DNA of 64,000 bases from Verrucomicrobiota bacterium (GCA_947454705.1 CANGKZ010000002.1:204882-268881); one strand, 5' to 3'. Numbered from the stretch's first letter, positions 8,129 through 30,240 are shown. Numbers and translations: made by a program. Notes: generated from the letters alone by a model not told the origin.

Positions 8129-9064
8129 TCACCGCGGCAACTCTCTGAGAATTTCCCGGAGTACAATCGCGGCATGCTCCGACACCGGGCCTTCGGTGAA
8201 GTCGGCGGCGTTGATTCCTTCCTGTCCGCCGGCGAGGTCGCTCAGCGAACGAATCACCAGACACGGCTTCCGGTTCGCCCAGCAGACCTGCGCCACCGCG
8301 GTGGATTCCATGTCGAGGCACTCAGCCTGCCACACGCGGAATGCCCATTTTCGGTACTCACGATTGTCCATGAACACCGGTCCCGCGATCGCGTTGCCGC
8401 CGATGGTCACCTTGCTCGGCCGTCCTTCGAAGGTGAGCGCGGGCACGTGTTTCAACGCGCGCCGGGCGGCGTCGAGCAGGCCCGGATCGGCGGCGAAGAA
8501 TTCCTGCCGCTTGGGTTCCGGCATGCCGTCGCGAATGGCCCAGACGTGATCCGGGAAGTGGTACCCGAAGTTCTCGTAGGGGGGCTTAAAGTACTGCGGG
8601 ATGACGTAGCCGGACCCATCTGGTTTTGGATTCAGGTAGGCTCCCTCGCTGTGGTGAAACCATTTTTCCGGAACCACCACGTCGCCGATGTGTCGGTCAG
8701 GATTCATGCTCCCGGCAATCCCGGCGAAGAGCACGTGGGTGATGGGAAAACGATCGATCGCCAACTGGGTGGTCATCGCCGCGTTCACCATGCTGACGCC
8801 GCTTGGGAACAGGATCACGTCGTGTCCCTCGAATTCAAAACGCTTGAACTCGATACCGTGAATCTTCGTGACCTCGATCGGCTGCCGCTTTCCCAGGAGG
8901 GCCGATTCGTTCGCCGCGGTCTCCGGGGTGTAGGCCGACATCACCGCGTACAGCGGGCGTACGGCGGATTTCGCCGTGGAAGGCGCGGAGGTGGCGCAGC
9001 CTGCAAGGAGCGCAATCAGAAGGAAGGCCAGCCACCGTCCGGCAAGGAACGGACGGGCGATCAT
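8129..9064 (-). CDS. Lipoprotein nucleoside phosphorylase/nucleosidase-family protein (MTAN/PNP-like)
   Basis: A 311-residue protein of the purine nucleoside phosphorylase / MTA-SAH nucleosidase superfamily. It begins with a lipoprotein signal, FLLIALLAGC, with a perfect LAGC lipobox. FAGIAGSMNPDRHIGDVVVP matches the family Gly-rich region, and LDMESTAVAQVCW carries the ribose/purine-contact glutamate. RSLSDLAGG carries the aspartate expected in nucleosidases. It should cleave a nucleoside to free base at the cell envelope, but the substrate is not resolved. I chose the ATG at 9062-9064, which overlaps the stop of the upstream purine permease gene by 4 bases; an upstream in-frame extension would read through that permease. 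Confidence 0.85.
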   Translation of the reverse strand: MIARPFLAGRWLAFLLIALLAGCATSAPSTAKSAVRPLYAVMSAYTPETAANESALLGKRQPIEVTKIHGIEFKRFEFEGHDVILFPSGVSMVNAAMTTQLAIDRFPITHVLFAGIAGSMNPDRHIGDVVVPEKWFHHSEGAYLNPKPDGSGYVIPQYFKPPYENFGYHFPDHVWAIRDGMPEPKRQEFFAADPGLLDAARRALKHVPALTFEGRPSKVTIGGNAIAGPVFMDNREYRKWAFRVWQAECLDMESTAVAQVCWANRKPCLVIRSLSDLAGGQEGINAADFTEGPVSEHAAIVLREILRELPR

Positions 9065-10407
9065 TTCCAAATGAGATGCGCGAGGAACAACACTCCGAGG
9101 ATCCATGCAAGAGGCTTTACCTCGCGCGCACGACCGATGCCAAGGGCGAACAATACGTAGACGACGAACCCGAGGGCGATTCCTTCCGCGATGCTGAAGG
9201 TCAGCGGCATCGCCAAAATGGTGATGACCGCAGGTACGGCCTTGGAGAAATCCTTCAGATCGAGCTCTGCAATGCTCTGCATCATGAACACGCCCACGAT
9301 CACCAGCGCGGGCGCGGTGGCGGCGGCCGGAATCACTGCAATGAGCGGGCTGAGGAACAGGGCGAGCAGGAAGCATCCGGCCGTGGTGATGGCGGTCAGA
9401 CCGGTGCGTCCACCGGCTTCGACGCCGGCGGCCGATTCAATGTAGCTGGTGACCGTGGAGGTCCCGAGCGTGGACCCAACCATCGCCGCGGTGGCGTCGG
9501 CGGTGAGGGCGCGTCCGAGCTTCGGCAAATCTCCTTTGGAATCCAGCAGGCCGGCCCGCTGACAGACGCCGATGAGTGTTCCCATGTTGTCGAACAAATC
9601 GACAAACAGCAGCGCGAGCAGCAGCGGCAGGCACTGACGCCAGTGCGCCCAGAAGTAGCCGAGATCGAGCTTCAGGAAGGTGGGGGCGAGCGATGCAGGG
9701 GTGGAGAGGAAGGCCGTCGGAGGTGTGGTGACGGGAACCGGTTTGCCGTCCGCACCGGTCGAGGTGAGGAAGAGGCCAACCACGGTGATGGCGGCGATCA
9801 CGAGGATGATCGCGCCGGGGACCTTCCGCCAAACCAAGATCGCGGTGAACACGATGCCGCCGAGGACGAGCAAAGGTCCGGGCTGGTGCAGGTCGCCGAG
9901 GCTCACAAAGGTGGGCGGGCTGGCCACGATGATGCCGCCGTTCTTGAGTCCGATGAATGCGATGAACAGGCCGATGCCGCAGGTGATGGCGAGTTTGAGT
10001 TCGTGCGGAATGGCCTCGATGATTTTCTTTCGGATGCCGGTGAGCGTGAGGATCAGGAAGATGCATCCGCTGTAGAACACCAGCCCGAGCGCGGCCTGCC
10101 AGGGGATCTTGGCACCGAGGCAGAGGCCGTAGGTGAAGAACGCGTTGAGTCCCATGCCGGGCGCGAGGGCGATCGGATAATTCGTCGCCAGCGCCATCAC
10201 GAGCGTCATCAGTGCCGACGCGAGGGCCGTGGCGGTAATGAGGGCTCCGCGATCCATGCCCGTCTGGCCGAGGATGCCGGGGTTGACCGCCAGGATGTAG
10301 GCCATCGCGGCGAAGGTGGTGATGCCGGCCACGAACTCACGTCGGAACGTGGTCTGGTGACGGCCCAGCTGAAACACGCGCTCGAGCACGGCGCATGATT
10401 CCTTCAT
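9061..10407 (-). CDS. NCS2-family purine permease (AzgA-like)
   Basis: This is a 448-residue inner-membrane transporter with about 12-14 hydrophobic segments. TTFRREFVAGITTFAAMAYILAVNP at the N-terminus and the DLFDNMGTLIGVCQRAGL segment are hallmarks of the AzgA-like branch of NCS2, which imports adenine, guanine or hypoxanthine. The start at 10407 (MKESCAVL) gives a normal length; the longer frame to 10488 adds a non-conserved leader. The gene is translationally coupled (ATGA) to a lipoprotein nucleosidase. That suggests nucleosides are split outside the inner membrane and the base is imported. Confidence 0.9.
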   Translation of the reverse strand: MKESCAVLERVFQLGRHQTTFRREFVAGITTFAAMAYILAVNPGILGQTGMDRGALITATALASALMTLVMALATNYPIALAPGMGLNAFFTYGLCLGAKIPWQAALGLVFYSGCIFLILTLTGIRKKIIEAIPHELKLAITCGIGLFIAFIGLKNGGIIVASPPTFVSLGDLHQPGPLLVLGGIVFTAILVWRKVPGAIILVIAAITVVGLFLTSTGADGKPVPVTTPPTAFLSTPASLAPTFLKLDLGYFWAHWRQCLPLLLALLFVDLFDNMGTLIGVCQRAGLLDSKGDLPKLGRALTADATAAMVGSTLGTSTVTSYIESAAGVEAGGRTGLTAITTAGCFLLALFLSPLIAVIPAAATAPALVIVGVFMMQSIAELDLKDFSKAVPAVITILAMPLTFSIAEGIALGFVVYVLFALGIGRAREVKPLAWILGVLFLAHLIWK

Positions 10408-10705
10408 CGGGGAAACCGAGCCAACAGGAATCCGAGTCGATGAAAAGGTTTCAACCTGGAAGCGGCGGATGAAACCACAGATGGACACAGATTCACACAG
10501 ATGGAGAGAAAGGTGCGTGGCTCAAGAGGTCTCACCTTCTGGGTGATCCATGAATCCCTCCGTTTCGCGCGTTTCCATCTGTGTTTGAACTCCCCTTGAA
10601 CTGCCGTTTTCAGGTTGAAGCGTTGAAGGGTAATCCAACGATTCATCTCCCTCTCCATCCGCGTTTATCTGCGTCCATCTGCGGTTCGAACTGCCGTTTT
10701 TAGGT
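10408..10705. repeat. 298-base intergenic region filled with dispersed repeats
   Basis: There is no gene here. The region holds three blocks of the CACAGATGG/ATCTGTG word family: 10471-10505 in plus orientation, 10565-10620 and 10650-10705 in minus orientation. The last two end in CTGCCGTTTT followed by AGGTT. One also contains the GTTGAAGCGTTGAAGGG words found at 7564-7622. The last block runs into the stop codon of the glycosyltransferase gene (10706-10708). No purine riboswitch-like structure was recognised upstream of the permease. Confidence 0.7.
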
Positions 10706-19671: not shown

Positions 19672-22050
19672 ATGAAGCTGCACCCCCTGACCATAGCCGG
19701 CGCCTGCGCGCTGGCGGTATCCGCCCGCTTTGCGGCGCACGCCCAAACCCCCGCCGCCCCCAAGGTGATGGACAAGTCCGTCATCGAGGGCATCCCGCTC
19801 GAAGAAACCGTCGTTCCCACGGCGCGTCCCTTCAACTCGGTGTACGGCACCGACCGCAGCATCATCGATACGCCGCGCAATGTGACCATCATCTCGCGTG
19901 AGCAGATGGATGCGATCAGCATTCACGACGTCCGTGAGTTCTCGAAGCTCACCTCCAGCTCCTACACCCGTTCCAATTTCGGTGCTCCGACGACGCCTGA
20001 CATCCGCACCCAGTACGCGGACACCTTCGTCAACGGCTCCCGCCTCGGCCTGACCTCCAACGGCAACGGCCTCCCGGTCAACTTCAACTCCGTCGAGTCC
20101 GTCAACATCGTCAAGGGCCCGGCCGGTGTCGTCTATGGCGCCAGCCAGTACGTCGGCGGCTATGTGGACCTCATCACCAAGAAGCCGTTCTTCGATGGTT
20201 TCCACGGCGAGGCCACCGCCGAGGTCGGTATGTTCGACCAGTATCGCTGGGGTCTCGACTTCGGCGCTCCGATCTCCAAGACGCTCGCCTACCGCGTCAG
20301 CTACTCCGGCGAAGAATCCGGCAGCTACTACTACGACGGCTACAAGCACACCCAGGCCGGCTACGCCGCCTTGAGCTGGGTGCCGAATGAGAAGTACGAC
20401 CTCTTCGTCAACGCCGAGTTCTTCCGCGCCGACTACACCGAAAACTTCGGCATCAATCGTCCGACCCAGGACTTGATCGACAAGGGTCTCTACCAAACCG
20501 GTATCAACAACAACCCGGCACCCGACTACGCCGCCTATCCGTTCGGCTACAAGGACGCCGCCGGCAATCCGATCACCTTTGGCAACGTCAACGTGGTCAG
20601 CGGCACGCCCGCTCCGATCTCGGACGCGCAGAATTCCAAGTGGGTCGTGTCCGGCTTCCCGGCGGTCAACAGCATCGCCCTCGGACCGGTGGTGAAGATC
20701 GATCGCCGCCTGCGTCTCCCGACCTCCGGTTCCGATGGCTTCAGCCTCAACCTCCAGGCCATCCAGACGCTCCACATCAGCGACGACACCTCGATCGTCA
20801 ACACCAGCTTCGGACGCTACGTCCGCCGCGACACCCTCAGCCCCTACTACTACTCGGAAATCATCGATCCGAGCTGGGAGATTGAGAACCGCACCGAGCT
20901 GCGCCTGACCAAGGAGAAGCACTCCATCAACACCGGTATCGACCTCAAGTACGTCGATGTCCGCGCGTTCAACGACTTCTTCAACGAGCCTGCCGGCGTT
21001 TGGGACATCACCAAGTCGCTCAAGCCGATCAACATCGCCAACGCCGCGTACTTCCCGAGCCCGTTCACCTCGGTGCCGGTTCCCGGATGGCCCGGCCGCT
21101 ACTACACCCCGGACAACGGCGACTCGGGTGAATCCCACACGATCGACGCCGGCTTGTTCTATCAGCATGACTGGAAGTTCACCGACCAGTTCTCCGCACT
21201 GTTCGGCGGCCGTGGCGACGTCCTGAGCCTGCACTACAAGGATCCCGCCGGGTTCCTCAAGGGCGACTCGACCACCGTCGTGCTCCCGAACGTCAACTCC
21301 AGCTTGGTCTACAAGTGGAAGCCCGAACTCTCGACCTACTTCACCTACAACTGGTCTGAGAACCCCGTGGGCTCCGTCGGCAACGGCGGCGGCTACACCA
21401 CGGCCGGCAACAACAACTTCTCGAATGCGAACCTGCGCAACGAGGCGACGTTGTACGAGCTCGGCACCAAGTGGAGCCTCATCGGCAACCAGCTCTTCCT
21501 GAACACGGCGATCTTCAAGCAGTTCCGCGATGATGCGCAGCTGGACCGCTCGGTGGTCACGTTTGACACCCAGGGCGTCGAGTTCGAGCTCAACTACCAG
21601 CCGAGCCGGAACTTCTACGCCACCATGGGCTACAGCTACACCGACGCCACGGTCAACAAGCCGCAGTTCGATGTGGGCAACACCTCGCTCGTCCCGCCCT
21701 CGAGCCGGTACTTCACCATGTCCGGCGACAGCTTCCGCCGTCAGGGCGTTCCGACCCACCTGCTGAACCTGCTCGGCAGCTACAAGTTCGACAACGGCCT
21801 CGGCGCCAGCGCGAACCTCGTGTTCACCAGCGAGATCAACAACAACGTCGCCGGAACCCTCGTGATTCCGGCCCAGTACACCCTCGACCTCTCGGTCTTC
21901 TACCAGCACAAGCGCTTTGAGGCCCGCCTCTCCGCGCTCAACGTGACCGACGAGAAGAACTGGAGCGCGCCCAACGCGGTGTACGGCAACGAGTCGATCA
22001 TTGCCGACCTTCCGTTCCGCATCGAAGGACGCGTGACGCTGAAGTTCTAA
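19672..22050 (+). CDS. TonB-dependent outer-membrane receptor 1
   Basis: A 792-residue outer-membrane receptor. A signal peptide of about 24 residues ends near AAHAQT. A TonB-box-like stretch (LEETVVPTARP) precedes the plug domain, which has TDRSIIDTPRNVTIISREQM, SVNIVKGPAGVVYGASQYVG and GGYVDLITKKP. The rest is a beta barrel of about 22 strands ending in the aromatic C-terminal signature GRVTLKF. It imports a substrate across the outer membrane using TonB energy. The fold resembles siderophore receptors, but the neighbours (NUP-family protein, exported adenosine deaminase) suggest nucleosides. It is a tandem paralogue of the next gene. A sigma-54-type promoter lies upstream and a terminator follows. 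Confidence 0.93.
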   Translation: MKLHPLTIAGACALAVSARFAAHAQTPAAPKVMDKSVIEGIPLEETVVPTARPFNSVYGTDRSIIDTPRNVTIISREQMDAISIHDVREFSKLTSSSYTRSNFGAPTTPDIRTQYADTFVNGSRLGLTSNGNGLPVNFNSVESVNIVKGPAGVVYGASQYVGGYVDLITKKPFFDGFHGEATAEVGMFDQYRWGLDFGAPISKTLAYRVSYSGEESGSYYYDGYKHTQAGYAALSWVPNEKYDLFVNAEFFRADYTENFGINRPTQDLIDKGLYQTGINNNPAPDYAAYPFGYKDAAGNPITFGNVNVVSGTPAPISDAQNSKWVVSGFPAVNSIALGPVVKIDRRLRLPTSGSDGFSLNLQAIQTLHISDDTSIVNTSFGRYVRRDTLSPYYYSEIIDPSWEIENRTELRLTKEKHSINTGIDLKYVDVRAFNDFFNEPAGVWDITKSLKPINIANAAYFPSPFTSVPVPGWPGRYYTPDNGDSGESHTIDAGLFYQHDWKFTDQFSALFGGRGDVLSLHYKDPAGFLKGDSTTVVLPNVNSSLVYKWKPELSTYFTYNWSENPVGSVGNGGGYTTAGNNNFSNANLRNEATLYELGTKWSLIGNQLFLNTAIFKQFRDDAQLDRSVVTFDTQGVEFELNYQPSRNFYATMGYSYTDATVNKPQFDVGNTSLVPPSSRYFTMSGDSFRRQGVPTHLLNLLGSYKFDNGLGASANLVFTSEINNNVAGTLVIPAQYTLDLSVFYQHKRFEARLSALNVTDEKNWSAPNAVYGNESIIADLPFRIEGRVTLKF

Positions 22051-22075
22051 GCCAACGCTTCAGGACCCTTCGCAG

Positions 22076-22112
22076 AACGGCCGCCGGATTCCCTCCGGCG
22101 GCCGTTTTCTAT
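22076..22112 (+). terminator. Rho-independent terminator after TonB receptor 1
   Basis: A perfect 13-base stem is formed by AACGGCCGCCGGA (22076-22088) and TCCGGCGGCCGTT (22094-22106), with a 5-base loop. TTTTCTATTT follows. It lies 26 bases after the receptor stop, so much of the transcription should end here and the second receptor likely has its own promoter or relies on read-through. Confidence 0.85.
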
Positions 22113-22223
22113 TTCCGGCATCCGATCTGCTTTTTGTCGAACGGGCGTTTTGTTGACCCACAAAACGTGCCCGGCTGCCGCCCTCTGGGCAGTTCCGTGT
22201 CCAGAAACAACCATCCTGCCCAA

Positions 22224-24599
22224 ATGAAAACCCACCGTCTCACCGTGGCCGGCGCGTGTGCGCTGGCCGTTGCGTTCCGTTTCAGCAGCCAGGCGCAAAC
22301 TGCCACCAACTCCCCCTCGGTGATGCAGAAGTCCGTCATCGAGGGAATCCCCATCGAGGAAACCGTCGTCCCCACGGCGCGTCCGTTCAACTCCGTGTAC
22401 GGCACCGACCGCTCCATCCTCGATACCCCGCGCAACGTCACCATCATCTCGCGCGAACAGCTCGATGCCATCTCGATCAAGGACGTCCGCGATTTCACCA
22501 AGCTCACCACGTCGAGTTATACGCGTTCCAATTTTGGTGCCCCCACCACGCCCGACATCCGCGGGCAGAGTGCCGACACCTTCGTGAACGGAATGCGAAA
22601 GGGGCTCACCTCCAACGGCAACGGCCTGCCGGTCAATTTCAACTCCGTCGAATCGGTCAACATCGTCAAAGGCCCCGCCTCCGTCGTGTATGGCGCCAGC
22701 CAGTACGTTGGCGGTTATGTGGACCTCATCACCAAGAAGCCGTATTTCGACGACTTCCGCGGCACCGCCTCCGGCACCGTGGGCATGTATGATCTCAACC
22801 AGTGGAACCTCGATTTCGGCGGTCCGATTGGTGACAGCAAGAAGGCCGGTTATCGCATCAGTTACTCCGGTGAGGATTCGGGAAGTTATTACTTCGACGC
22901 CTTCAAGAAGAGCCAGGCGATCTATGGCGCTCTGGGCTGGCAGGTGTCCGACAACTACAGCATCGATTTTAACGCCGAATACTTCCAGTCCTCTTACACC
23001 GAGAACTGGGGCATCAATCGTCCCACCCAGCTTCTGATCGACCAGGGGCTGTATCGCACCGGCATCAACATCAACAACGGCGCTGGCAACCCGCCCTCCG
23101 ATCCGCAGAACTCGCTCAATGTAAAAGCCTCGGGCAACACCATTGCCTACGGACCGGATGTGCTCATCGATCGACGCATCCGTCTGCTCAAGCCAAACGA
23201 CGGCTCCTTCGGTCAGAATTTCAACGCCCAGCTCCTGCAGAAGGTGAACCTCGGGGAACACCTCGAGATCGTGAACAACACCTTCGGAAGCTGGATCGAT
23301 CGCAACACCCTCAGCGACTACTACTATTCCGAAATCCTGAAGGACAACTGGAGCGTCGAGAACCGCACCGAAACCCGCTTCTCCTTCACGTTGCTCAACC
23401 TGGAAAACTCGGTGAACACCGGCATCTCGGAGCGATACCAGGATGTGGAAACCTTCGTGGATTTCGCCAACGAACCGGCTGCCGTGTGGGACCTGACCAA
23501 GGATCGCAACTTCATCTATTTCCCCGACGCCACCAAGCTCGCCAATAAATCGCTTCCGGTTCCGGGATACTTCAATCGATATGCGACGCCCGGTTCCACA
23601 TACGTAGACCCGGTCACCGGAAAGACCTTTGTTGGCGGCAACGGTTCCACCGCGCATTCCCAAGCGTTCCAGGTAGGACCGTTCTTTGAGGACGACCTCA
23701 AGATCACCGACAAGCTCAGCCTCCTTTACGGCGGCAGGGTGGACATGCTCTGGGTCAGCTATGTCGATCCGCTCGCCCCGGCCGGGTACGTGGCGAAATC
23801 CGACAACACTTCGGCGGCACTCCCGAACGCCAACGCCAGCTTGGTGTACAAGCTCACTCCGAAGGTCAGCAGCTACGTCACCTACAACTACAGTCAGTCC
23901 ACCGGCGCCTCCACCGGCGGCGGCTACTCGACCAGCGGTTCGCAGTTCCAAAGCCGGTACTTCCACCGCGCCAGCGACCTGTACGAGGGCGGGTTCAAGT
24001 TCAGTTCCTCTGACAACAAGTTCTTCGCCAGCGTCGCCGGCTTCCAGCAGAACCGGATCATCAGCTCACTCGGCAACATCGCTCCCAACGAGGTACTCTA
24101 CCGTGGCGCGGAGTTTGAAGTGAACTACCAGCCCGACCGGCATTTCTACACCACCTTCGGGTACTCGTTCATTCAGGGCACGCTGCTCAACCAAGCGCCG
24201 TTCTCGGTGCGCAACGTGACGCCGAATCCCGACAACCTGCCGTCCAAGCAGCTCGGCTTCGGTGGGTATCCGCTTGGCGACTACGATCAACCCGGGCTGC
24301 CCAGCCACATCTTCAACTTTCTCGCCACCTACAAACTCCCCGGAGGTCTGGGCCTGAGTTTCGGCGGAACCGTGACCAGCGATTGGAACCAGACCTACGA
24401 CGGAAACATTGTGGTTCCGTGGCAGTTCAGCCTCGATGGACGCGTGTTCTACGACACCAAGCGCTTCCGCGCCGAAGTGGCCTTCTTCAACATCACCGAC
24501 GAGAAGAACTGGAGCCCGCCCAATGCGACCTACGCCACCGAGTCGATCTATGCGGAACCTCCCTTCCGCATCGAGGGACGCGTGACCGTCAAGTTCTGA
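22224..24599 (+). CDS. TonB-dependent outer-membrane receptor 2
   Basis: This 791-residue protein is clearly paralogous to the preceding receptor. The export signal region (THRLTVAGACALAVAFRFSSQA) and plug domain (PFNSVYGTDRSILDTPRN, SVNIVKGPASVVYGASQYVG) are nearly identical to it. The extracellular loops of the barrel differ strongly (for example residues 270-310 and 450-500), which suggests different ligand specificity. It ends with the same C-terminal strand (RIEGRVTVKF). I chose the ATG at 22224, which puts the signal peptide at the N-terminus. It lies 78 bases before the NUP-family gene. Confidence 0.93.
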   Translation: MKTHRLTVAGACALAVAFRFSSQAQTATNSPSVMQKSVIEGIPIEETVVPTARPFNSVYGTDRSILDTPRNVTIISREQLDAISIKDVRDFTKLTTSSYTRSNFGAPTTPDIRGQSADTFVNGMRKGLTSNGNGLPVNFNSVESVNIVKGPASVVYGASQYVGGYVDLITKKPYFDDFRGTASGTVGMYDLNQWNLDFGGPIGDSKKAGYRISYSGEDSGSYYFDAFKKSQAIYGALGWQVSDNYSIDFNAEYFQSSYTENWGINRPTQLLIDQGLYRTGININNGAGNPPSDPQNSLNVKASGNTIAYGPDVLIDRRIRLLKPNDGSFGQNFNAQLLQKVNLGEHLEIVNNTFGSWIDRNTLSDYYYSEILKDNWSVENRTETRFSFTLLNLENSVNTGISERYQDVETFVDFANEPAAVWDLTKDRNFIYFPDATKLANKSLPVPGYFNRYATPGSTYVDPVTGKTFVGGNGSTAHSQAFQVGPFFEDDLKITDKLSLLYGGRVDMLWVSYVDPLAPAGYVAKSDNTSAALPNANASLVYKLTPKVSSYVTYNYSQSTGASTGGGYSTSGSQFQSRYFHRASDLYEGGFKFSSSDNKFFASVAGFQQNRIISSLGNIAPNEVLYRGAEFEVNYQPDRHFYTTFGYSFIQGTLLNQAPFSVRNVTPNPDNLPSKQLGFGGYPLGDYDQPGLPSHIFNFLATYKLPGGLGLSFGGTVTSDWNQTYDGNIVVPWQFSLDGRVFYDTKRFRAEVAFFNITDEKNWSPPNATYATESIYAEPPFRIEGRVTVKF

Positions 24600-24628
24600 A
24601 CCCCGATCCCAACCTCAATCTTCTGTGA

Positions 24629-24664
24629 ACGCCTGCGGACTGGATTTTGCCGGTCCGCAGGCGT
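24629..24664 (+). terminator. Hairpin after TonB receptor 2
   Basis: ACGCCTGCGGAC (24629-24640) pairs perfectly with GTCCGCAGGCGT (24653-24664) around a 12-base loop. Only CTCCTT follows, so termination may be partial. It ends 13 bases before the next start codon. Confidence 0.55.
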
Positions 24665-24677
24665 CTCCTTATCCACC

Positions 24678-25772
24678 ATGACGCTGCTTCCGCGATCGCG
24701 CTCCCACTGGCTTGCCTGCCTCTGCCTCTGCCTCGGTTGGGCCAGCCTGATGCCTGCCCATGCCGAGCTCTCCGCCGCATCACCGCTGAAGGTGAAGGTG
24801 GTGGTCGTCACGCTTTTCGAAATCGGAGAAGACACCGGGGACCGTCCGGGCGAGTACCAATACTGGGTCGAACGGGAACACCTGACCAATCGCGTCGCCG
24901 TGCCCGGCGCCTGGCGACCGGTGCGCTATCGGGACGATGGCGTGGTGGGCATCTGTACCGGGGGTGGTACAGCCCGCAGCGCCGCGAGCATCACCGCCAT
25001 GGGGCTCGATCCGCGCTTCGACTGCTCGAAGGCCTACTGGGTCACCGCGGGAATCGCCGGCATTGATCCCGCCGACGGAACGCTCGGCTGCGCTGCATGG
25101 GCGGAGAACATCGTCGATGGTGATCTCGCTTACGAAATCGATGCCCGCGAAATCCCCTCGGACTGGCCCACGGGCTACATCCCCCTGAGCCAGCAGCGTC
25201 CGTACGCGCTTCCCAAAAAGAACCGCGGCATCGGCAACGTGGCCTTCACACTCAACAAGCCGTTCGTGGAATGGGCCTACCAGCTCACCCGCGACACTCC
25301 GCTGATGGAGAACGACGTGATGAAGGTCAACCGGGCCCGCTACACCAATCATCCCGCCGCCCTGCGCGCCCCCTTTGTGCTGAAGGGCGACAACCTGGCC
25401 GGGTCCACCTTCTGGCACGGAAAGTTGCTGAACCAGTGGGCCAACGATTGGGTGAAATACTGGACCGACGGCACGGGCAACTACGTGACCACGGCGATGG
25501 AAGACAGCGGCACGTTGCAGGCGCTGACCTTTCTTTCCGCGGCTGGAAAGGCCGATACGAATCGCGTTCTCGTCCTTCGAACCGCTTCGAACTTCGATCA
25601 GCAACCTCCGGGAAAAACCGCCGCGGAAAGCCTGGCCGAGGAAAACGACGGCAAATACTCCGCCTACATTCCCAGCCTCGAGGCCGCGTATCGGGTCGGG
25701 AGCAAGGTCGTGCACACGCTTGTCGATCGCTGGAGCGAGTACGGGGTCACCATCCCCACCGCGAAGCCGTGA
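24678..25772 (+). CDS. Purine nucleoside permease (NUP) family protein, exported
   Basis: A 364-residue protein of the NUP family, first described as a yeast purine nucleoside permease. By fold the family appears related to nucleoside phosphorylases rather than to multi-span transporters. A signal peptide (HWLACLCLCLGWASLMPAHA) is followed by LKVKVVVVTLFEIGEDTGDRPGE, ICTGGGTARSAASITAMGLD and YWVTAGIAGIDPADGTLGCA, the family core. There are no other membrane helices, so it is likely periplasmic. It probably binds or cleaves purine nucleosides. It sits between the two TonB receptors and an exported adenosine deaminase. Confidence 0.88.
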   Translation: MTLLPRSRSHWLACLCLCLGWASLMPAHAELSAASPLKVKVVVVTLFEIGEDTGDRPGEYQYWVEREHLTNRVAVPGAWRPVRYRDDGVVGICTGGGTARSAASITAMGLDPRFDCSKAYWVTAGIAGIDPADGTLGCAAWAENIVDGDLAYEIDAREIPSDWPTGYIPLSQQRPYALPKKNRGIGNVAFTLNKPFVEWAYQLTRDTPLMENDVMKVNRARYTNHPAALRAPFVLKGDNLAGSTFWHGKLLNQWANDWVKYWTDGTGNYVTTAMEDSGTLQALTFLSAAGKADTNRVLVLRTASNFDQQPPGKTAAESLAEENDGKYSAYIPSLEAAYRVGSKVVHTLVDRWSEYGVTIPTAKP

Positions 25773-25871
25773 TGCCTGTTTGAACGATTACGCGGCCAAC
25801 CCATGATGCCGTTGAGTCGGACCCCGTTCTGATCTTTCGGTGAAGATTTCCCTGTGATCCCACGATCCTCC

Positions 25872-27281
25872 ATGAACCTGTTCTCCAAGTGCTGCCTTGT
25901 CTCGGCGTTGCTCGCTTCCGTCGTCGTTCGCGCTGCGGGATTCGGCGAAGTCTTCGAACGCCTCAAGACCCAATCCTCCAAGGCGGATTTGTTCCGCTTT
26001 CTCTACGCCGTTCCCAAGGCCGGAGACCTGCACCACCACAGCGGTGGATGTTGGCAGATGGACTCGCTCTACCAGGTGGCCACCAACACCGCACGCAACG
26101 GCGGCAATCGGTTCTACACCCGCGTGCGTGCGGGCACATGCGAGGGCGACACCAATGCGTGGCGCCAGTTCCAGACCATTGCGGCCTACACCTGGAAGGC
26201 GCTTCCGGAATGCCAGCAGAAGGAATTCGCGGCACTCGATGAACTCACTCCGACCCAGCGTGTCGCGTTCGTGAATTCGCTTCGACTCGATCAACCGGGC
26301 GAAGGACGCAACGAGTTCTTCGAGGAGATCTGGCCTCGATTCGGCGCGATGGGTCGCAGCCTCGACGTGTTCCTCGAAATGACGGTCGAGACCATGAAGC
26401 GCTACGGCGCCGAGGGGGTTCGCTATTTGGAGCCGCAGACCATTCCCGTGGGATTCGTTCTCGCCGATGGCACCGCGGTGGACCCCGACGAGATGAGCCG
26501 CCGGTTGAAGGCCCGCCTTGAGCAGCCCGATGCGCGGGCCACCGGCGTTGAAGTCCGCTGGCAGGTGGTCGTGCTCCGCTTCACCCCGGTGGCGGAGAAA
26601 AAAGTGGAGGAAGCCTACGACTTCGTGTCACGTCATCACGACATCTGGGTGGGCATCAACATGGCCGGCCGTGAAGACAACGATAAGGGCCATCCCCGCC
26701 GCTTCCTGGAGACCTACCGCCGCATGCGCCACAAGTATTCGGGCGTTGGTCTTTCGATCCACGCGGGCGAAGTCGATGAACCTAATCCCCACATGCGGGA
26801 CACACTTTTGCTCGGAGCAACGCGCCTGGGTCACGGCAACAATGTCCTCACCGACGACGAACTCGTGCTGCACCTGCGCAGCGGCATCGCTTACGTGGAG
26901 ATCAATCTGGTGAGCAATCTCCTCCTGGAGTACGTGACCAATTACTCGCAGCACCATTTCGCGGAAATGCTCCGCCTGGGAATTCCGTGCGGTCTGTCCA
27001 CCGATGATTCCGGCATGTGGGATTCCGGCATGACCGACGAGTACATGACCGCGGTCACCGAGTTCAACCTCACTTGGGACGAACTCATCCAGTGCGGTCG
27101 CAACTCGTTGAAGTGGTCCTTCGCCGAGCCGGCGTTGAAGCAACGGATGCTGGAGGACTACGAACGCTCGGTGAAGGCGTTCGAACAGAAATGGTCCACG
27201 GGCGAAGTGAAGGACCTGCTCGCGCAGGTTCATCCTGTTGCCTACGGCTATGCCGCACGCCGTTGGGGAATTCGCTACTGA
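25872..27281 (+). CDS. Exported adenosine deaminase family protein
   Basis: This is a 469-residue metallo-hydrolase of the adenosine deaminase family, with a signal peptide (SKCCLVSALLASVVVRAAG). KAGDLHHHSGG supplies the HxH zinc ligands (residues 54 and 56). SIHAGEVDEPN carries the zinc histidine and catalytic glutamate, TRLGHGNN the catalytic histidine, and CGLSTDDSGMW the zinc-binding and neighbouring aspartates. It should convert adenosine to inosine outside the cytoplasm, as ADGF/CECR1-type enzymes do in animals. I chose the ATG at 25872, which puts the hydrophobic core of the signal near the N-terminus. The gene ends 25 bases from the convergent DUF885 gene. Confidence 0.88.
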   Translation: MNLFSKCCLVSALLASVVVRAAGFGEVFERLKTQSSKADLFRFLYAVPKAGDLHHHSGGCWQMDSLYQVATNTARNGGNRFYTRVRAGTCEGDTNAWRQFQTIAAYTWKALPECQQKEFAALDELTPTQRVAFVNSLRLDQPGEGRNEFFEEIWPRFGAMGRSLDVFLEMTVETMKRYGAEGVRYLEPQTIPVGFVLADGTAVDPDEMSRRLKARLEQPDARATGVEVRWQVVVLRFTPVAEKKVEEAYDFVSRHHDIWVGINMAGREDNDKGHPRRFLETYRRMRHKYSGVGLSIHAGEVDEPNPHMRDTLLLGATRLGHGNNVLTDDELVLHLRSGIAYVEINLVSNLLLEYVTNYSQHHFAEMLRLGIPCGLSTDDSGMWDSGMTDEYMTAVTEFNLTWDELIQCGRNSLKWSFAEPALKQRMLEDYERSVKAFEQKWSTGEVKDLLAQVHPVAYGYAARRWGIRY

Positions 27282-27306: not shown

Positions 27307-29097
27307 TCAGAACAATTCCCCGTGGAGGCTTGAATCCTTGAGCATCGCCTCCCGCAGCAGTCGCAGCGGAGGCGCGCCGTGCCGGAGCGCCTCGTCGTGG
27401 AATCGCTGGAGTGAGAAGGCGCTTCCCTCCTGGCGTTTCCAGTCCTCGCGCAGCTTGAGGAACTGGAGCTTGCCCAGCGTGTAAAAGCAGTAGCCAGGAT
27501 CAAAGGTGCCGCGAATCGCCTCCTGGCGCGCCGGCTTGGCCTCGTAGTGACAGTGCTCGATGAAGAACTTCGTGGCTTCATCCAGGCTCATGCCGAAGCA
27601 GTGCATCTGCACCGAGGCGCAAAGCCGGCAAACCCGCAGCAGTGCTTCGTCCGATTGCGCGAGACGGTACTTCGCCGCGCGAATCCGCTCCGCTTCGCTC
27701 GCGCGCGATGGATCCTTCGGCTGGGCAAATCCTTCGGCGAGCAGCATCTGCTCGGTGTAGTGAGCCCAGCCCTCGGCGAAGGCATAGCTGTAGAACGCCT
27801 TCTGTCCGGGCGTCGCCTTCGAGGCATTCAACGCGAGGAACTGCACGTAGTGGCCCGGATACGCCTCGTGGATGCTAACCACATCGGTCGTGTAGTAATT
27901 GAACGCCGTGAGCCACTCCTCCTGCTGGGCCGCGGGCCACTGAGGCTCGACCGGCGTGACGTAGTAGTAAGCCTGCGTGGCCTTGGTTTCGAACGGTCCC
28001 GGCGTGTCCATCGAGGCGAAACTCGTGGCGCGGAATGGAGGGAGCGTCTCGGTCACCTGAGCCCGCACTTCGCTGGGGATGGTCAGAATCTTGTGGTCCA
28101 CCACGAATTGCCGGATGGCCTCCAGCGTTCGGCGCGTTTCCGGAATCAAATTGGGTGCCGTCGGATGGTCGTGCTGGATTTGCTTGAAGACCTCGGTTGC
28201 GGATCGCGTGGGATCAATCTCACGCGCCGCCGCCTGGAACCGTTGCTCCTCGGCCTTCAACTCGGCCATGCCGATCGCCAGGATACGCTCCGGGGACAGA
28301 TCGATGAGCTCGTTGGCCAGCATCCGTGAGTAATTGGCGCGGCCGATGGCGAATTCGGGGGTCGCAGTCGGAAGCCGGTTCGCTGTGAGCCAGGCTGCAA
28401 ACTCGCGGTGTTCCTTCGCCGCCGTGCGGACCGTCTGGTTGAAGGCGTCCCGGATTCCGGCGTCCTTGCACCCTGCTCCCGCGGTCAGGACTTCGTTTTC
28501 AAGGAACCCGGCCGTGGCACCGGCGATCTCAATGGCGGTTTCCACCCACGGTTTCGGGAGCAGGGGTTCGAGCTGGTTTCTCGCAGTCGAGAAAAGGGTC
28601 TGCGATCCGGAGAGAATCGCGGTCATGTCGCGCATCCGCTCGGGGAGCGGCTTCCAATCGCGCTTCAAATAAAGGCTCACGTCGAGCGCGCTGGCGTAAT
28701 AGGCCGGATTCCGATACGGGGTTCGGACCCCCTCCACCTGCAGCAACTCGCCATCGGTCACGGTTCGCAGCATGCGGAGTTCGCGCAGGCGTTCTGCGGG
28801 CAGTGCCTTGCGCTGGATCTCGGCGGCGAACAGGGCGTCGAACTGGCGGAGTTCTGCGATCTCCTTGTTCAAGTTGTCGCGGGACGGCAGCCAGCTCTTG
28901 CCGTCGAATTCATGCAGCCCCAGGGCGCTGCCCCCCGCGGGCTGCACGACATAGCGCGCGTGGATGAAGCGATCGATCGACGATGCAATCGCTGTGGAGG
29001 TGGAATCCGTCGATCCGTTCGAGCGACTGGATTGTGTCCCGTGGCTGCAACCGGCGAGGACGAGTCCAACGAGGGGAATCCATGCGAGCTTCTGCAT
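27307..29097 (-). CDS. DUF885 family lipoprotein (putative metallopeptidase)
   Basis: A 596-residue lipoprotein: the signal LAWIPLVGLVLAGC ends in a perfect LAGC lipobox, and a Ser/Thr-rich linker follows. The DUF885 family motif HEAYPGHYVQF (HExxPGH type) is at about residue 400, followed by YAFAEGWAHYTEQMLLAEG, which supplies the expected third ligand glutamate. The family is predicted to contain zinc carboxypeptidase-like enzymes, but the substrate is unknown. It is transcribed divergently from an AraC-family regulator, with 111 bases between the longest annotated starts. Confidence 0.88.
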   Translation of the reverse strand: MQKLAWIPLVGLVLAGCSHGTQSSRSNGSTDSTSTAIASSIDRFIHARYVVQPAGGSALGLHEFDGKSWLPSRDNLNKEIAELRQFDALFAAEIQRKALPAERLRELRMLRTVTDGELLQVEGVRTPYRNPAYYASALDVSLYLKRDWKPLPERMRDMTAILSGSQTLFSTARNQLEPLLPKPWVETAIEIAGATAGFLENEVLTAGAGCKDAGIRDAFNQTVRTAAKEHREFAAWLTANRLPTATPEFAIGRANYSRMLANELIDLSPERILAIGMAELKAEEQRFQAAAREIDPTRSATEVFKQIQHDHPTAPNLIPETRRTLEAIRQFVVDHKILTIPSEVRAQVTETLPPFRATSFASMDTPGPFETKATQAYYYVTPVEPQWPAAQQEEWLTAFNYYTTDVVSIHEAYPGHYVQFLALNASKATPGQKAFYSYAFAEGWAHYTEQMLLAEGFAQPKDPSRASEAERIRAAKYRLAQSDEALLRVCRLCASVQMHCFGMSLDEATKFFIEHCHYEAKPARQEAIRGTFDPGYCFYTLGKLQFLKLREDWKRQEGSAFSLQRFHDEALRHGAPPLRLLREAMLKDSSLHGELF

Positions 29098-29208: not shown

Positions 29209-30240
29209 ATGCGCGGGATGCAGTTACGGTCCGGAATCGTGGCCTCCTCACCCCGCATGCACCCCGGACTCATGGATGGTGGAGAAGCCGTATTGTGGCG
29301 CTCGGCCGGGGCGCGTTGGCGTCAGCTGTTCGGCGATTTCGCAAAACTGGGAGTGAGTTTCGAGTGGCACGAACTCCCTGCGGATCGCGAGGTGGATTGG
29401 GCACCGAGTTTTCATCCGGAAAGCCTCGAACTCTGCCTGAATCTCAGCGGGACCGGGGAGTTGGTCCTTGGCGATAGGAAGCTCCAGTTGTCTTCGGGGA
29501 CCGCCGGTTTTTATCGTCAGGGTGCCCAGTCGTTCCAAGCTCGACGCCTTTCCGGGCAGATCCATCGCTTCATCACCGTCGAATTCTCTGCCGCCTTCCT
29601 CGCCGCGCATTTGGACGGAGTGGACGGGGCGCTGCATCCCGTAGTGAGGGATACTTTCCGAGGCAAAAGCCGCGATTCCGCGCTGGGCGGACTCGAATCC
29701 CTCGGACCCCGTCATCGGGATTTGGTCACCAGCCTGCATCAGCCGCCGGTCCTCGCGGCAGCCCAGGCCCTTTGGTACAAGGCCAAGGCGGTCGAACTCA
29801 TGGGGGAGTTCCTCTTCAGCCCTCCGTCGGATCAGGAGCTTTTCTGCCACCGACAGATGCGAATGGCCCGCAGCCGCGTGGATCGCGTGGTGGATTGCAT
29901 CAAGCGGGATCTCACGCAACCGCCCACCTTGGAGGCACTTGGGAAGGAAGTGGGATGCAGCCCGTTCTATCTGAGTCGCACCTTTTCCAAGGAAATGGGG
30001 GTGACCATTCCCCAGTACGTTCGCCAACTTCGCCTTGAGAAGGCGGCCGACCTGCTCCGAGCGGGGCATCACAACGTGACCGAAGTGGCTTTGGAAGTGG
30101 GCTACAACAGCCTGAGTCACTTCAGCCAGGCGTTTCATCAGCACTTTGGCTGCTGTCCTGGGCTGTTTCCTACCTCTACCTCCACCCAACGCGCAGCAAT
30201 TCGGCCCGATGCAGAAGGGCCGAGACCGCGTGGATCATGA
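29209..30240 (+). CDS. AraC-family transcriptional regulator
   Basis: A DNA-binding protein of up to 343 residues. The C-terminal 100 residues form two helix-turn-helix motifs of the AraC type (LEALGKEVGCSPFYLSRTFS and NVTEVALEVGYNSLSHFSQAF). The N-terminal part has a cupin-like sensor feel (LELCLNLSGTGELVLGDRK, then FYRQGAQSFQARRLSGQIHRF), as in PchR-type regulators that sense small molecules. Starts at 29209, 29218, 29257 and 29272 are all possible; the last two remove a leader that looks unstructured. Its 3' end overlaps the convergent M50-like gene by 65 bases. Targets are unknown; the divergent DUF885 gene is a candidate. Confidence 0.88.
   Translation: MRGMQLRSGIVASSPRMHPGLMDGGEAVLWRSAGARWRQLFGDFAKLGVSFEWHELPADREVDWAPSFHPESLELCLNLSGTGELVLGDRKLQLSSGTAGFYRQGAQSFQARRLSGQIHRFITVEFSAAFLAAHLDGVDGALHPVVRDTFRGKSRDSALGGLESLGPRHRDLVTSLHQPPVLAAAQALWYKAKAVELMGEFLFSPPSDQELFCHRQMRMARSRVDRVVDCIKRDLTQPPTLEALGKEVGCSPFYLSRTFSKEMGVTIPQYVRQLRLEKAADLLRAGHHNVTEVALEVGYNSLSHFSQAFHQHFGCCPGLFPTSTSTQRAAIRPDAEGPRPRGS

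Follow-up and report, generated by a model that had tools for sequence, protein, structure and literature searches.

Two TonB-dependent receptors, a NUP-family protein and an adenosine-deaminase-superfamily protein are encoded consecutively on one strand of a Verrucomicrobia draft genome (5.4 Mb, 80 contigs, 95.7% complete); with an NCS2-type permease and a putative lipoprotein nucleosidase encoded nearby, they probably form an envelope system for scavenging purine nucleosides. The stretch of that genome analysed here, 64,000 nucleotides long, is referred to as the window. For this scavenging system we infer the substrates, the order of steps, catalysis by NUP and import of the base, as follows: the receptors would carry purine nucleosides, or a nucleoside-releasing compound, over the outer membrane; once in the periplasm, adenosine would be converted to inosine by the exported deaminase (ADA), and NUP, as a soluble protein, would cleave 6-oxopurine nucleosides to release their base; adenine-type (thio)nucleosides would fall to the lipoprotein nucleosidase; and the NCS2 permease would import the base for cytoplasmic salvage.

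Gene order in the window and in relatives

The arrangement of the four genes, proposed originally from the DNA alone, is real. All lie on the + strand: the first receptor, TBDR1 (19672..22050; 792 aa), has the domains PF07715 and PF00593 over cut-off; the second, TBDR2 (22224..24599; 791 aa from the likely ATG at 22224, with an alternative TTG start upstream at 22134), has PF07715 over cut-off; NUP (24678..25772; PF06516) is a putative enzyme of the MTAN/phosphorylase fold; and ADA (25854..27281, the likelier start being ATG 25872) belongs to PF00962. Each protein begins with a signal-peptide-like stretch, which agrees with the export signals that had been predicted for all four. The original prediction also placed an NCS2 permease pair nearby; it is actually a single NCS2 permease (9061..10488, − strand; PF00860, 163 bits) with a lipoprotein of the MTA/SAH-nucleosidase family (8129..9064, − strand; LLAGC, PF01048), whose start overlaps the permease stop by 4 bases. 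A glycosyltransferase gene occupies the other flank of the permease gene, which is the only one of its type found in the genome. With this detail corrected, the earlier functional reading is partly supported, its receptor ligand, deaminase substrate and NUP activity being putative.

Gene order, on which the original prediction had been staked, is conserved far above chance. The order TBDR-NUP-ADA was found on one strand in 13 genomes besides that of the window (GTDB collection included), with NUP and ADA overlapping by 4 bases in most relatives that keep it; tandem receptors like those of the window occur at one other locus, L142. Of 286 genomes sampled from the class, 29 have NUP, and all 17 genomes with an orthologue of the window ADA also have NUP (hypergeometric P ~5e-20, a value overstated since the genomes are related and come from three families). 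Within the window's own family, the same-strand order is seen in 7/7 NUP-bearing genomes, the window's included; seven genomes of this family have receptor, NUP, ADA and nucleosidase, and three have none of the four, so the set is present or absent as a whole. In G073 (L031), G201 (L035) and G219 (L036), the permease gene lies directly downstream of ADA and the nucleosidase gene comes next, giving a single row TBDR-NUP-ADA-NCS2-nucleosidase; their permeases and nucleosidases are 71-81% and 52-68% identical, respectively, to those of the window. The window encodes the same five functions, split into two blocks.

Beyond the window's group, the majority of NUP loci have no recognised ADA nearby, a point against the scavenging reading; among 80 GTDB loci around NUP, 26 had ADA near, 20 had NCS2 and 4 had adenine deaminase. 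Elsewhere, too, NUP has purine genes for partners: NCS2, adenine deaminase, an ADA of another subfamily, and an MTA/SAH-type nucleosidase. Loci of the Pelagicoccus type have a double NUP beside a TBDR, adenine deaminase, ADA and NCS2. At the Bacteroidota loci L106, L124 and L138 (Hymenobacter and relatives), a different ADA subfamily is found with NUP, NCS2 and an Oar-type outer-membrane receptor unrelated to the TBDRs of the window. The strongest argument for purine handling at the outer membrane is this second assembly, in which neither the receptor family nor the ADA subfamily is that of the window.

The only matches to RNA families (Rfam) in the window were two tRNAs. Among the clusters of neighbouring genes, RecF-like ones and antisense ORFs were dropped as irrelevant or spurious, and the AraC gene at 29209-30240 was rejected as a dedicated regulator, no counterpart being seen at the relatives' loci. 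A hairpin of 15 bp with a T-rich stretch behind it lies after TBDR1 (22074..22110, +; RNA fold z −4.3) and is either terminator-like or a 3' stabiliser; it was absent from the output of the consensus terminator scan. A second, long hairpin, lacking a strong T run, lies between TBDR2 and NUP (24627..24667, +; z −5.5). The promoter scan returned no sigma-70-like promoter in the locus, and the two hairpins may set the ratio of receptor to enzyme or separate transcripts.

NUP and its partner deaminase

NUP, the most interesting element of the locus, is probably misnamed as a permease. It matches PF06516 with 370 bits (cut-off 27) over profile positions 1-311 of 313. The membrane permease that its name implies was rejected: beyond the signal sequence, no transmembrane segment was found (no 19-residue window above 1.6), and the modelled structure is a soluble alpha/beta fold. 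A sequence search of the PDB returned no relatives of NUP, and its kinship is visible in fold search only. The AlphaFold2 model, built from an alignment of 66 sequences (window and GTDB), had a pLDDT of 92 and a pTM of 0.89; compared with the PDB (Foldseek, VIA-align 2), it matched MTA/SAH nucleosidases with Z scores of 20-24 over ~225 residues at 2.4-3.2 A. Membership of NUP in the MTAN / purine-uridine phosphorylase superfamily is well supported by this predicted fold, and a survey of fungal domains also places NUP among the purine/uridine phosphorylases (PMC9815663). The earlier expectation of cleavage or binding in the periplasm can be sharpened because NUP has this fold: going by the model, it is a probable nucleosidase or phosphorylase.

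Which residues would perform catalysis was judged from a profile alignment of NUP with the window's own lipoprotein nucleosidase. The GIAG motif aligned, M274-E275 of NUP fell on M252-E253, and S304-N305 fell on S275-D276; the motif R-x-x-S-[N/D] is equally spaced in the two proteins. The correspondence of Asn305 to the catalytic Asp of MTA/SAH nucleosidases is moderately supported, based on this one alignment (probability 46%, E 2e-4) and motif spacing; repeats, including a local hhalign of NUP against the lipoprotein family, in which the profile had 10 sequences did not reach significance. Of 66 NUP sequences, 61 have Asn and 5 have Asp at position 305, and the acidic and ribose-site residues E48, E59, M274, E275 and R301 are invariant.

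In this superfamily, Asp at the corresponding position marks the 6-aminopurine nucleosidases and the hexameric phosphorylases, and Asn marks the 6-oxopurine-specific trimeric phosphorylases. If Asn305 carries a 6-oxopurine preference, NUP would need inosine or guanosine, and its partnership with an exported deaminase would be explained. Both that preference and the catalysis itself are predictions. Pressed further, the scavenging reading would turn the NUP family into nucleosidases or phosphorylases of 6-oxopurine nucleosides, exported for the most part and bearing a natural change from Asp to Asn; here NUP would work with a periplasmic ADA behind dedicated TonB-dependent nucleoside receptors, so that nucleosides are actively captured and their base is freed wholly outside the cytoplasm; we give this fuller version somewhat less than an even chance. 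The idea that Asp-type NUPs dispense with ADA was abandoned: ADA accompanied 0/6 of them (all Acidobacteriota) and 39/110 of the Asn type, a sample too small and too closely related.

Asn at the presumed proton-donor position also speaks against the scavenging reading, in that NUP might be a poor catalyst or serve for binding. Taken to its end, this would make NUP a periplasmic nucleoside-binding protein that kept its fold, lost catalysis and passes nucleosides to an inner-membrane carrier, leaving the deaminase as the sole enzyme. Asp-to-Asn variants of MTA/SAH nucleosidase do bind substrate, and crystal structures contain the two together (1z5o, 4p54, 4oy3), as would suit the Asn aligned with the catalytic Asp, and the Candida NUP was named as a transport protein (PMC9431476); however, the invariance of E48, E59, M274, E275 and R301 would be unusual in a dead enzyme, and the partners of NUP are NCS2-type base permeases rather than nucleoside carriers. 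We consider a pure binding role unlikely.

The Candida protein bears on activity as well. With it, an adenine-requiring yeast grew on adenosine and was not sensitised to the nucleoside toyocamycin, a result its authors read as narrow transport specificity (PMC9431476). In our reading, not theirs, the yeast data fit extracellular cleavage too. Activity of the Candida NUP on adenosine is at odds with a strict 6-oxopurine preference, unless that protein has a different residue at this position.

The deaminase matches PF00962 with 113 bits (cut-off 27) and has the metal-binding and catalytic motifs HxH, HAGE, GHG and TDD; residues H60, H62, H303, E306, H327, D384 and D385 were invariant in 11 sequences. 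Judged by sequence, it is a divergent member of the adenosine-deaminase superfamily with a conserved active site.

Nucleosidase, permease and receptors

The lipoprotein scores above the cut-off of TIGR01704 (75.1 bits vs. 73.8) and below that of NF004079 (108.1 vs. 169). Another candidate explanation is that the locus targets S-adenosyl-derived thionucleosides (MTA, SAH, SAM products), with the lipoprotein as main enzyme and the "ADA" deaminating MTA or SAH. An MTAN-like partner would be expected on this account, ADA falls under the curated adenosine-deaminase cut-off (TIGR01430, 110.7 vs. 216.55), and in Opitutia loci a SAM hydrolase with an export signal is encoded close to TBDR and NUP. Seven genomes, however, have NUP and this ADA without a close homologue of the nucleosidase, and the adenine deaminase and NCS2 partners suggest ordinary purine bases; a thionucleoside target is improbable, in our estimate about as much so as a purely binding NUP. 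The SAM hydrolase of the Opitutia also suits the scavenging reading, as it would yield adenosine.

On the scavenging reading, the base is more likely to be salvaged than oxidised completely, and deamination would release ammonia on the side. A search for molybdenum-hydroxylase domains of the xanthine dehydrogenase type, positive in control genomes, returned none from the 96%-complete genome, which makes it unlikely that the purine ring serves as a nitrogen source via xanthine.

The two receptors are 52% identical, and the plug domain identifies both as TonB-dependent; a search of the whole genome turned up only 11 such TonB-receptor plug domains. TBDR1 has a TonB-box-like EETVVPTA close to its N terminus, and its orthologues adjoin NUP in relatives (the G079 copy is 91% identical). 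In a tree that combined the NUP-linked receptors with the remaining receptors of the genome, TBDR1 clustered with the NUP-adjacent receptors of relatives, and TBDR2 and the L142 receptor formed a separate lineage inside the same larger NUP-linked group; the deep forks of this tree are weak, and several of the other receptors sit on long branches. Scanned flanks of the receptors (DoxX, NUP, ADA, DUF885, AraC, arginine decarboxylase) held no SusD-like lipoprotein.

Two observations run against the scavenging reading here: the PDB neighbours of the receptors are siderophore or metallophore receptors, and the permease unit lies 9 kb from the locus on the opposite strand. That the receptors serve a siderophore, metallophore or cofactor, with purine genes as incidental neighbours, is nevertheless the least probable of the explanations considered: their nearest named families are siderophore receptors and their nearest PDB sequences are the enantio-pyochelin and pseudopaline receptors, but they score about half the siderophore-receptor cut-off (TIGR01783, 121 and 113 vs. 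223.5), occur with NUP/ADA in 14 genomes of a single family as well as in further families, and have no Fur-like site upstream beyond those in shuffles (clean upstream stretches in the window, L031, L035, L036 and L066; stretches partly coding, from a start set at an internal Met, in L032, L034, L069, L070 and L142). The most parsimonious guess for the ligand is a nucleoside, but a nucleotide, a SAM-like compound or another nucleoside-bearing ligand is possible.

Comparison with known systems

The gene set would combine TonB-dependent capture with processing in the envelope. The original prediction named no described system of this composition, and the literature searched, mostly papers available without subscription, contained no TonB-linked nucleoside system with a matching gene set. 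The SusCD-type ribose and nucleoside utilisation loci of Bacteroides combine a TonB-dependent receptor with nucleoside-cleaving enzymes and resemble the window in having receptor and nucleoside enzymes at one locus; they differ in that the scanned neighbours in the window include no SusD-like protein and its enzymes are NUP and an exported ADA. In Xanthomonas albilineans, a TBDT pair with a putative nucleoside hydrolase (XALc_0643/XALc_0646) has been proposed to take up carbohydrate (PMC3542200). Two TonB-dependent transporters thus adjoin a nucleoside-cleaving enzyme there, as predicted in the window, but that enzyme was called a nucleoside hydrolase, and neither an exported deaminase nor NUP is mentioned.

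Among characterised enzymes, the periplasmic MtaN-2 of Aeromonas hydrophila (PDB 5b7p/5b7q/6if8) is likewise exported and shares the fold (NUP model vs. 5b7q, Z 24.1, 3.1 A); NUP, in contrast, is 14% identical to it and exceeds it by ~100 residues, with Asn in place of the presumed catalytic Asp. The protein that gave the NUP family its name, CaNUP of Candida albicans (PMC9431476), is eukaryotic and a reported transporter, and is likened to the window protein by family name. If NUP is an exported enzyme, the name of a family annotated in bacteria and fungi alike, and passed on from genome to genome, would be corrected; a conserved TonB-dependent route, if true, would add purine nucleosides to the cargoes of TonB.

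Nucleosides are a labile fraction of dissolved organic matter, and their textbook route over the outer membrane is the passive porin Tsx. The system proposed for the window resembles Tsx of E. coli in offering nucleosides an outer-membrane route, but Tsx is a passive porin that does not depend on TonB and has no dedicated exported enzymes (PMC11658791).

Domain organisation of the NUP homologues

Two NUP domains were fused in a single ORF of 680-714 aa in L049, L114, L126 and L137, loci of Pelagicoccus/DG1235-type genomes; these double-NUP ORFs adjoin a TonB-dependent receptor (TBDR), an adenine deaminase, an adenosine-deaminase-superfamily protein (ADA) and an NCS2 permease. The homologues in L044 and L052 are probably cytoplasmic, because the domain begins directly at the N terminus, without a signal peptide. 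Position 305 (window NUP numbering) was occupied by Asp, not Asn, in L081, L097, L125, L140, L141 and L143, all from Bryobacterales/Terriglobia, and a recognised ADA was located near none of these six NUPs.

Neighbouring envelope proteins

An Oar-type outer-membrane protein was located close to NUP in the Acidobacteriota loci L078, L083 and L141, with no recognised ADA or NCS2 permease among the neighbours. The gene directly downstream of ADA in the window (27307-29097, minus strand) encodes a DUF885 lipoprotein-like protein; among Opitutaceae, several loci (L080, L088, L094, L101 and L103) likewise have distant DUF885 proteins close to NUP.

Exported SAM hydrolases in Opitutia

In the Opitutia loci L041, L050, L057 and L086, an exported SAM hydrolase (PF01887/PF20257; for example, L086:6022-6939, minus strand), a possible extracytoplasmic source of adenosine, was found close to TBDR and NUP.
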